64,000 nt of DNA. Source: Longimicrobium sp. Its GTDB lineage: Bacteria; Gemmatimonadota; Gemmatimonadetes; Longimicrobiales; Longimicrobiaceae. Positions 27,566-30,759 of the stretch are shown here, in pieces. The notes below the pieces were generated by a model that was not told the DNA's origin, ran no database searches, and was given only the letters and a program-made list of their open reading frames with translations. The translations under genes and the position numbers were made by a program. Location of the stretch: the NCBI GenBank assembly GCA_036377595.1, contig DASUYB010000089.1, positions 1 through 64,000 of the forward strand. Reading direction: 5' to 3'. Position 1 is the stretch's first letter. The number at the start of each line of letters is the position of its first letter.

Positions 27566-29785
27566 ATGGACACTCGCAAGTACGCAACCCTGCTCTCGGT
27601 GGCCCAGGAAGCCCAGGCCGGACGCGAGGCCTCGGCGCGCGCGCTGCTCGACCGCGTGGTGAAGGAGCGCATGGACGCGGGGGGCGGCGCCGGCGACCTG
27701 CACTTCTACCTCTTCGCCCGCGCGCTGTCGAAGCGGCTGTCGTCGGAGAAGACGGAGGAGATCAACCTGTACCTGCGCCAGTTCCAGGACACGCAGATCT
27801 CCCTGTTCAACCTCCTCGCGCGCCATCTCCCCACCGTGGCGCTGACCGCGCCGCTGGCCAACCAGCTGCTGGCGCGCTTCGTGGGCGGCCACGAGGAGGT
27901 CACTATCTTCGACATCGGCATCGGCTCGGGGCACCAGGAGATCGCCATGCTGCGGCTCCTGGCCGCGCAGCACCGCCTCCCCCAGCGGCTGAACGTCGTG
28001 GCCGTCGAGCCCGACGCGGGGAGCCTGATCGAGGCGCAGATGGGGCTGTTCGAGGCCAGCGTGGAGCTGGGCTTCGAGCTGGAGTTCGTCCCCGTGCACA
28101 AGGTGGTGGAGGACATGACCGAGGCCGAGTGGGCCGAGCTGGCGGTGTTCGACTGCCCGCTGGTGGTGAACGCCTCGTTCGCGGCGCACCACATCCAGTG
28201 CACCGAGGGGTCGCGCCTGCGCGACCAGATCTTTTGCCGCATCCGCGAGCTGGACCCCAACGCGGTGGTGCTGGCCGAGCCCAGCTCCAACCACCACACC
28301 GCCAGCCTGGTCGAGCGCTTCAAGGCCTCCTGGCACCACTTCGGGCTGACCTTCCGGCTGATCGACGAGCTGGAGGTGGAGCCGCACGAGGCCGCGGCGA
28401 TGAAGATGTTCTTCGCGCGCGAGATCGAGGACATCGTGGCCAACGGCGAGGCCACGCGCTACGAGCGCCACGAGCCGGCGGAGGTCTGGGTGGAGCGCCT
28501 GCGCCGCGCCGGCTTCACCCCGTACGCCGACTTCGAGTTCGCGCGCGAGACGCGGCACGACCTGGTGCGCGTGGCCCCGCGCGAGGGCTACATCGGGCTC
28601 GATTACGCCGACGAGACGCTGGTGGCGGTGATCTGCGCCACCTCGGGTGTTCCCGCCGCCCCGCGCGTGCGCCGCGTCCACCGCGCCCGCGCGTTTACTC
28701 CATCCCGCTGCTCCGCCGGTCTCCAGGTTGGCCGCGGGGTTCCGAATCAGCCGCTTTGGCCGGAGCGGGACGAAGGGGACTGCATGGAAAGTAAATGGCT
28801 CCCGTACAAGGTGTTACACTTGACGGTAGCAGGTGCGCCCGGCATATTCCACGCTCTGTCCGTGACATCGGGTGCCGGAGCACGCTCCGGCGCCGAACGA
28901 AGCCCCCTCCCGCCTCCCTTGCGCGCGCGTCCGGTGCCGTCCCGGGCCGCCGCGGGCACCCCCCTCCGGGAAGCACGATCCTTCAGACAGGACGTACAGG
29001 ACCTTGAGCGACGACGTGCGCGTACCCGCAGACGCCACCGTGAGCGGTGGCAACATCCTTTCCATGCTGGCGGCGATGGGTCCGTTCCGGAAGCGCGGCG
29101 AGCAGATCCTGGAGGAGTACGGCATCCACGGCGTGGACGTGGAGAAATGGTATCCCCTTCCCGCCTACGTGCAGTCGCTGCGCACCATCGGGCAGAAGAT
29201 GGGGCCCAACACGCTGCTGCAGATCGGCAAGCAGATCCCCCACCACGTGCCGCTGCCGCCGGGGCTGGACACCTTCGAGAAGGTGCTGGCGTCGTTCGGG
29301 ATCGCCTTCGACATGAACCACCGCGGGATCACGCCCGGCGCGATCAGCTACCGGCTGCAGAGCGAGCGCTCGGCCGACATCACCACCGGCACGCCCTATC
29401 CATGCGAGTTCGACCGCGGCGTGATCCAGGGGTTCTTCCAGGTGCTGCTGAGCAAGCGGGTGACCGTGCAGCACGGCGACGGGGGATGCAAGAACGAAGG
29501 CGCGGCGACGTGCACGCATCACGTGGTGGTGCCGCTGGCATGACCGAAGTGCGTGAGTGCGTGAGTGCGGAAGTGCGAGGGTACGGATGTACGGAAGTGC
29601 TGAGTGCTGACGAAAATGGCCCTGCTCGCCGAGTGGCGAGCAGGGCCGTTTCCATTGCGCGCGGCGCCCTCTCCCTGGCGCTTCGCGCCTGTCCCTCCCC
29701 CAAAACCGACTGGGGGAGGGACCCGGGCTCGCTTCGCTCGCGGCGACTCAGCGCGGTCCGGGTGAGGGCCTACCGCAGGCGGTAG
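27566..29785 (+). CDS. Bacterial GRAS-family (methyltransferase-fold) protein; coding signal ends near 28690 but frame stays open to 29785
   Basis: Residues 1 to about 375 (27566-28690) match the GRAS family best known from plant transcription factors such as DELLA/SCARECROW. The VHIID-like core is VTIFDIGIGSGHQEIAML (from residue 112), followed by LNVVAVEP. Other matches are LVERF (RVER position), MKMFFAREIEDIVANGE (PFYRE/SAW-like), and YERHEPAEVWVERLRRAGF. The fold is a Rossmann methyltransferase; bacterial members may modify small molecules. The start has GGGAGAGAC upstream. Beyond about 28690 codon structure is lost, yet no in-frame stop occurs until 29785, crossing the next gene out of frame. 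Either a frameshift lies near 28650-28700 or the long read-through is real. Confidence 0.75.
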   Translation: MDTRKYATLLSVAQEAQAGREASARALLDRVVKERMDAGGGAGDLHFYLFARALSKRLSSEKTEEINLYLRQFQDTQISLFNLLARHLPTVALTAPLANQLLARFVGGHEEVTIFDIGIGSGHQEIAMLRLLAAQHRLPQRLNVVAVEPDAGSLIEAQMGLFEASVELGFELEFVPVHKVVEDMTEAEWAELAVFDCPLVVNASFAAHHIQCTEGSRLRDQIFCRIRELDPNAVVLAEPSSNHHTASLVERFKASWHHFGLTFRLIDELEVEPHEAAAMKMFFAREIEDIVANGEATRYERHEPAEVWVERLRRAGFTPYADFEFARETRHDLVRVAPREGYIGLDYADETLVAVICATSGVPAAPRVRRVHRARAFTPSRCSAGLQVGRGVPNQPLWPERDEGDCMESKWLPYKVLHLTVAGAPGIFHALSVTSGAGARSGAERSPLPPPLRARPVPSRAAAGTPLREARSFRQDVQDLERRRARTRRRHRERWQHPFHAGGDGSVPEARRADPGGVRHPRRGRGEMVSPSRLRAVAAHHRAEDGAQHAAADRQADPPPRAAAAGAGHLREGAGVVRDRLRHEPPRDHARRDQLPAAERALGRHHHRHALSMRVRPRRDPGVLPGAAEQAGDRAARRRGMQERRRGDVHASRGGAAGMTEVRECVSAEVRGYGCTEVLSADENGPARRVASRAVSIARGALSLALRACPSPKTDWGRDPGSLRSRRLSAVRVRAYRRR
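28820..28848 (+). promoter_or_regulatory. Promoter for the V4R-like gene
   Basis: TTGACG (28820-28825), 17-base spacer and CATATT (28843-28848), 155 bases before the start at 29004. Its position supports the GRAS coding region ending before this point. Confidence 0.6.
29004..29543 (+). CDS. Small V4R/heme-sensor-like protein
   Basis: 179 residues from a TTG (GACAGGACGTACAGGACC upstream); GTG codons at 29016 and 29040 are alternatives. The region GGNILSMLAAMGPFRKRGEQ to ISYRLQSER is alpha-helical. The C-terminal end QHGDGGCKNEGAATCTHHV, with two Cys and two His, resembles the metal-binding tail of V4R (4-vinyl-reductase-type) and related small-molecule sensor domains. This is pattern recognition, not a firm family assignment. 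It follows the GRAS gene on the same strand but has its own promoter. A strong terminator follows. Confidence 0.65.
   Translation: MSDDVRVPADATVSGGNILSMLAAMGPFRKRGEQILEEYGIHGVDVEKWYPLPAYVQSLRTIGQKMGPNTLLQIGKQIPHHVPLPPGLDTFEKVLASFGIAFDMNHRGITPGAISYRLQSERSADITTGTPYPCEFDRGVIQGFFQVLLSKRVTVQHGDGGCKNEGAATCTHHVVVPLA
29547..29610. repeat. AGTGCGTG/AGTGCTG word repeat
   Basis: A run of GAAGTGCGTGAGTGCG-type words without a clear complementary arm. It shares words with 16073-16163 and 35183-35215. Confidence 0.75.
29616..29652 (+). terminator. Terminator of the V4R-like gene
   Basis: TGGCCCTGCTCGCC pairs with GGCGAGCAGGGCCG, loop GAGT, then TTTCC. Confidence 0.8.
29666..29753. repeat. Dispersed repeat with CCCTCCCC stem, copy 2 (inverted)
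   Basis: This is the reverse complement of 23858-23945 with few differences over about 85 bases. Confidence 0.8.
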
Positions 29786-30759
29786 CTCAGCTCGAAGGTG
29801 CCGTAGGTGTGGGGCGTGGGCTGCGTCTCGTACTGGCGGGCCTGGGTGAGGGCGCGGTACTCCAGGGTGAGGCCGCCCAGCCGCGCGCCCGCGCCCACCT
29901 CGTACTGCCAGAGGAACGGGCGCCGCGCCACGCTGGGGCTGCCGCCCGCGCCGTCCAGGAACAGGTCGCGCGCCACGGCGTCCTCGCGCACGCGGGCGAT
30001 GGCGTACACCGACGCGGGGCCCGCGCGGCGGTCGGCGGCGCGGCTCCACGGGTGCGGCACGTTCCACCCCGCCCGCAGCGTGGCGCCCGCGTGCGCGCCC
30101 ACGTGCACGTTCCCGGCGTCGGCGCCCCACTCAGGCGCGAGGGTGGCGACTCGAACATCCCCCGAGCGCAGGTCGGCAAGGATGCGCGACTCGTCGTAGC
30201 GCACCACGATCCCCGGCTCGAAGCGGAGCTGGTTGTCCCATCCCTCCGGGTCCCAGAATCCCGCCAGCCGGTGCCAGCCGGTGTGGATCGCCTTTCCCAG
30301 CGAGGGCGGGCCGGTCACCCCGATCTCCACCCCCACCGAGCGGCGGCCGGCGGCGGTGAGGACGTTCCCCGTCGCCGACAGGTAGAGCCACCCCGCGTAC
30401 GGGCGCTCGCCGGGGACGGGCTCGGCGGCGTCGACGCGCGGGGTGAACAGCTTCTGCCCGAACGCGAAGGTGGTGCTGGTGCACGCGCTGTCGGCGGACT
30501 CGCCGCCGGAGCAGCGGGCGGAGCGCGGCGCCAGCTTCCCCGCCCACAGCGGCCCGCCGGCGATCTCCATCGACAGGTCCACGCCGTTGGTGTAGTCGTG
30601 GTCCGGCCGGCTGTCTACGGGGATCCAGAAGTCGTACGCGTCGTTGTCCAGCGACAGCCGGACGTCGCGCACCTGCGCCGACGCGGGCGCGGCGGCCAGC
30701 GCCAGCGCGAACGCGAGCACGGCACGGCCGGGGCCGCGTCTGTGTGAGCCTGCTTTCAT
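29770..30759 (-). CDS. LpxR-like lipid A deacylase (outer membrane)
   Basis: 329 residues from MKAGSHRRGPGRAVLAFALA, a signal peptide with cleavage after ASA. Conserved LpxR-type segments are present: SLDNDAYDFWIPVDSRPDHD with YTNGVDLS, PYAGWLYLSATGN, GKAIHTGWHR and a final beta strand ending FELSYRLR. Enzymes of this group are 12-stranded barrels that remove the 3'-acyloxyacyl group of lipid A. The Asn/Asp of LDND and the His of GKAIH are the likely catalytic positions. It converges on the V4R-like gene across two repeats. Confidence 0.82.
   Translation of the reverse strand: MKAGSHRRGPGRAVLAFALALAAAPASAQVRDVRLSLDNDAYDFWIPVDSRPDHDYTNGVDLSMEIAGGPLWAGKLAPRSARCSGGESADSACTSTTFAFGQKLFTPRVDAAEPVPGERPYAGWLYLSATGNVLTAAGRRSVGVEIGVTGPPSLGKAIHTGWHRLAGFWDPEGWDNQLRFEPGIVVRYDESRILADLRSGDVRVATLAPEWGADAGNVHVGAHAGATLRAGWNVPHPWSRAADRRAGPASVYAIARVREDAVARDLFLDGAGGSPSVARRPFLWQYEVGAGARLGGLTLEYRALTQARQYETQPTPHTYGTFELSYRLR

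Follow-up and report, generated by a model that had tools for sequence, protein, structure and literature searches.

Introduction

Bacterial members of the GRAS family are already described, and they have been proposed as ancestors of the large family of plant regulators. RVER-type and SAW-type segments, the latter C-terminal, are among the named motifs of the family, and the hallmarks of class I SAM-dependent methyltransferases are a motif I of the form GxGxG and an acidic residue after strand 2. Bacterial GRAS proteins are placed among the Rossmann methyltransferases in the part of PMC5834537 that cites Zhang, Iyer and Aravind 2012. A search of open-licence papers for GRAS proteins in Gemmatimonadetes in connection with a methyltransferase found none.

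The gene studied here lies in a window of 64,000 nt, the whole stretch of Longimicrobium sp. DNA that was analysed. Its product resembles the described bacterial proteins in having a GRAS domain of Rossmann methyltransferase-like type and ~370 residues, but the stop codon that should follow is missing from the window sequence. Two Skermanella plasmid proteins, annotated as GRAS family proteins, align with the window protein at 29-31% and end just past the last conserved strand. They differ in their surroundings, since in Skermanella the GRAS gene lies next to one for a PAS-domain protein in the opposite orientation, whereas the neighbour in the window is a protein with a V4R/H-NOX fold (hereafter the partner).

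Results

The open reading frame on the forward strand begins with ATG at position 27566 and ends with TAG at 29785. It encodes 739 residues and contains no internal stop, in agreement with the initial annotation. Its coding character was scored per block of 30 codons with a codon log-odds model trained on the same contig. Each block up to 28645 scored between +11 and +29, whereas all blocks after it were negative, with a minimum of -43 within the next gene, which places the end of coding near 28,650. The transition is abrupt and lies slightly earlier than in the initial annotation, which had put it near 28690. The rest of the frame (28658-29785, forward strand, 376 codons including the stop) crosses a promoter-like site and the reading frame of the next gene. 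Pfam searches of this tail matched no family, and its frame over the partner gene is broken in three of the seven relatives read. Given the negative codon log-odds and the length of the homologues, which stop at 376-382 residues, we consider this stretch a fortuitous in-frame run-on and not a real tail. The run-on frame terminates 16 bases into the 3′ end of a gene for an LpxR-like outer membrane lipid A deacylase, located on the reverse strand at window positions 29770-30720.

Pfam, AlphaFold and Foldseek agreed on a complete Rossmann-type GRAS fold for residues 1-364 (27566-28657, forward strand). With a 376-residue query, the match to PF03514 (GRAS) scored 143.6 bits (cut-off 27) over residues 8-342, and a whole-genome search identified this match as the only one in the 7.2-Mb, 208-contig genome. 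The AlphaFold model, built from a four-row alignment, had a mean pLDDT of 85 and a pTM of 0.81 and comprised a helical cap and a Rossmann-like core; order ended at about residue 360, with pLDDT below 50 for residues 362-376. When the model was compared with known structures using Foldseek, the best 12 PDB matches were plant GRAS entries, with TM scores of 0.73-0.78 by query length, and methyltransferases followed after a gap (E ~1e-6). The likeness to plant GRAS proteins (SCL3, SCL7, RGA and the SCR/SHR structures) extends to sequence, as phmmer matched plant GRAS structures with E values down to 2e-13. The middle glycine of GxGxG, kept in the bacterial protein, is missing from the rice protein in the alignment. 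Family membership, which the initial annotation had proposed from motif-like segments, is thus confirmed by profile, sequence and predicted fold.

Of those segments, the RVER-like one is supported: R298, E300, R301 and H302 are kept in all seven aligned bacterial family members, the window protein included, and the segment reads RGERFD in both Skermanella proteins. As to the SAW-type segment, the model has C-terminal strands, but the letters SAW do not occur and the Pfam match extends only to 349 of 374. Motif I reads GIG(S/T)G in all seven family members and GIGxG in both Skermanella proteins, and nine of nine aligned GRAS proteins have E148 or D, the acidic residue that follows strand 2. Because the GIGSG motif I and this acidic residue are retained, the GRAS domain is likely to bind S-adenosylmethionine and to act on or sense a small molecule, a putative role like that of a small-molecule methyltransferase.

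The GRAS gene was found in eight of 21 genomes of the bacterial family, the genome of the window being counted, and in six of 395 genomes of a phylum-wide draw, all six in the same family. The closest relative, G003, shares 79% identity. Homologues align in frame with the window protein to about residue 364, a result that rejects a frameshift inside the GRAS domain. Six homologues have a complete C-terminus, and all six end with TGA at 376-382 residues: 382 in G003, 378 in G001, 377 in G008, 376 in G009, 378 in G016 and 376 in G010. The copy in G007 is split over two contigs and was left out of this count. This comparison of C-termini, suggested in the initial annotation, indicates that the annotated GRAS protein should end at about residue 365-380. 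That this is the true product, and that the frame became long through the loss of ~84 nt and a chance run-on, is jointly very probable in our judgement.

DNA alignment with G003 revealed that ~84 nt of that genome are absent from the window just past the GRAS domain, as one block of 84 or, in an affine alignment, as 9 plus 75. The alignments (with L002/L040) place the junction at 28658-28693 on the forward strand; what is missing there comprises the TGA of the relative and one arm of a hairpin. In G003 this hairpin (arms of 16 bp, loop of 4 nt) is located 23-58 nt past the TGA, and the window retains G003-like sequence only from about the far hairpin arm onward. Inverted repeats with arms of at least 7 were not found between window positions 28646 and 28800, and the best 50-nt fold reached -23.1 kcal/mol in the window versus -43.0 kcal/mol in G003. 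A hairpin with arms of at least 7 follows the GRAS stop in four of the six relatives, and in one of these four the longest overlaps the next promoter. In L041 and L044, ~40-150 nt past the GRAS stop, an inverted repeat surrounds the putative -35 element of the partner gene, with TTGACA in the loop, and is possibly an operator.

Since a stop is present at this place in the other relatives as well, the change lies on the side of the window, and either the organism or its assembly was affected. Its rarity was apparent from orthologous pairs between the window genome and G003: 60 genes were predicted on the G003 contig, 27 pairs passed 60% identity and 60% coverage, and the only pair differing by more than 25 residues at the C-terminus was that of the GRAS gene. 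We also considered a general loss of hairpins from this assembly. It was not seen for perfect hairpins with arms of at least 12, of which there were 36 in 284 kb of the contig (12.7 per 100 kb) and eight in 67 kb of G003 (11.9 per 100 kb); for arms of at least 14 the densities were 5.3 per 100 kb on the contig and 8.9 in G003. That the contig has no general lack of perfect hairpins speaks somewhat against a systematic hairpin artefact.

The frame is open downstream by chance because the DNA is 71% G+C and stops are rare. With their stop skipped, 20 of the 214 genes predicted along 284 kb of the contig would run on for at least 363 codons (the GRAS gene itself does not appear among the listed genes near it). 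In a second gene set, 21 of 232 genes had a run-on as long; a stricter version, which left out 20 genes because their next in-frame stop is also the end of another prediction, had 13 of 212. The six relatives have their second in-frame stop 13 to 305 codons past the first. Run-ons as long as 363 codons are no rarity in this genome, and it is the absence of the stop, not the length of the run-on, that stands out. The partner gene of G001 (L009, 1890-3173) is a second case of run-on in this GC-rich group; it extends to 427 codons, with its expected end near 2420.

The partner gene (29004-29543, forward strand) starts with TTG and encodes a protein of 179 residues with a V4R/H-NOX/Bet3-type fold, according to homologues, weak V4R matches and fold matches. 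Its frame is offset by 1 relative to that of the GRAS gene, and it scores +102 codon log-odds in its own frame. Window and G003 differ at 15, 8 and 30 of its codon positions 1, 2 and 3, a pattern that fits a protein read in the frame of the partner. The gene is preceded by a sigma-70-type promoter-like site (28820-28848, forward strand), in which TTGACG (28820-28825) and CATATT (28843-28848) are separated by 17 nt and which is conserved in the closest relative. Both the gene in another frame and the promoter-like site had been recognized in the initial annotation, and both stand. A perfect hairpin with 13-bp arms, likely a terminator, follows the partner gene at 29618-29647 (forward strand) and is crossed by the run-on frame.

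Homologues of the partner occur in nine of the 21 family genomes, that is, in the eight with a GRAS gene and in G006, which has no GRAS gene and carries a copy 49% identical behind paa-like genes. In the phylum-wide draw they occur in seven of 395 genomes, among them all six with GRAS. In eight of eight GRAS genomes the partner gene directly follows GRAS, downstream and in the same orientation (in G007 as inferred across a contig break). Upstream, paa-like (phenylacetyl-CoA oxygenase) genes were recognized by eye, with a Pfam check in the window, in the window, G003, G009, G010 and G007; they are absent from G016, and the contigs of G008 and G001 end before they could appear. G007 encodes a second partner-like protein, 35% identical and away from any GRAS gene (L048, 1234-1776). 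Partner relatives with 29-34% identity are found on Haloarcula, Halobellus and Leptolinea plasmids (archaeal and Chloroflexota; H3-H10) and are hypothetical where annotated. Two of these eight plasmid records were inspected; no annotated GRAS gene was found within ~5 kb, where most genes are 'hypothetical'.

V4R was weakly matched in all four partner members tested (best E 1e-4); the window partner scores 16.7 bits, under the Pfam cut-off of 31, and differs from V4R in standing alone. The partner model (moderate, pLDDT 67) matches H-NOX and TRAPP Bet3 structures with VIA Z scores of ~10-11.5; the H-NOX match, which has to be read with this pLDDT in mind, reaches Z 11.5 over 159 residues with an rmsd of 3.6. 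H-NOX proteins bind the haem propionates through a YxSxR motif. This motif was not found in the aligned partner members, which have YPC(E/D), or YPCE followed by other letters, and membership of the partner in the H-NOX family was accordingly rejected. His106, Cys134, Cys162 and Cys170 are kept in ten of ten aligned members.

Discussion

The observations are best explained by an ordinary bacterial GRAS gene whose stop was lost through a deletion or assembly gap of ~84 nt and whose frame runs on by chance, a reading that we consider highly probable. The ~84 nt would have been lost at a GC-rich palindrome, by a real deletion or by assembly dropout at the same place, and with them the stop codon and half of the hairpin behind it. 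As the stop codon is gone, the frame would then by chance meet no stop in the G+C-rich DNA that follows, nor in the partner gene, which is read in another frame. The initial annotation had offered a frameshift or sequence error near 28650-28700, a recoding event or a real 739-residue product. A sequence change in that interval is upheld, in the form of a missing segment and not of a frameshift, because the alignment with homologues keeps the frame as far as about residue 364; the other two proposals are rejected by the codon use of the tail, its want of domains and the stops of the homologues. A functional long frame, whether by programmed readthrough, by recoding or as a genuine protein of 739 residues that overlaps the next gene, has in its favour that the frame is open in the assembly. 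It is extremely improbable in view of anti-coding codon use all along the tail, in which no Pfam family was matched, and of relatives that have stops and, in three of seven, a broken tail frame over the partner. Draft sequence in 208 contigs could also contain a one-base error near 28650-28700 that hides a stop in another frame, but this too is very unlikely: the next other-frame stops, at 28792 and 28821, are not where relatives stop, that at 28629 falls within the conserved domain, and the segment with the relative's stop is absent from the window.

The favoured loss of ~84 nt can have occurred in the data or in the cell. If it is purely an artefact of assembly or consensus, the stop of the cell would lie ~15-20 codons past the domain and the assembler would have skipped a GC-rich hairpin, a version that we rate just below an even chance. 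What is missing falls at a perfect hairpin of the relative (16-bp arms), the assembly is in 208 contigs, and such a change affects only one of 27 orthologous pairs; on the other hand, other perfect GC-rich hairpins are present on the contig at similar density. If instead the strain has truly lost stop and terminator, it would produce a long disordered tail or rely on rescue of the run-on transcript, for example by trans-translation, and we place this version somewhat under an even chance. It agrees with an intact, in-frame GRAS domain and with an assembly from which hairpins are not generally lost; against it are the stop retained in six relatives and the run-on protein that the cell would still face. 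Palindromes are deletion hotspots, as a real deletion would need, and they favour assembly dropout as well, so the coincidence with the hairpin does not discriminate between the two. Under either version of the ~84-nt loss, the long tail is almost certainly meaningless, and recoding need not be invoked to settle the question of read-through.

A modestly interesting lead worth keeping is the pairing of GRAS with a V4R-fold protein. Its constancy suggests a sensor plus methyltransferase-like pair, and the partner, with its own promoter-like site, is probably a ligand or redox sensor working with the GRAS protein. That the two form a signalling module in this one family of Gemmatimonadota, with the GRAS methyltransferase under the control of a ligand-binding sensor, is an unlikely but testable proposal on the role of bacterial GRAS proteins. 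If true, such a module would be a bacterial counterpart of GRAS proteins controlled by ligand and receptor, as DELLA proteins are in plants.
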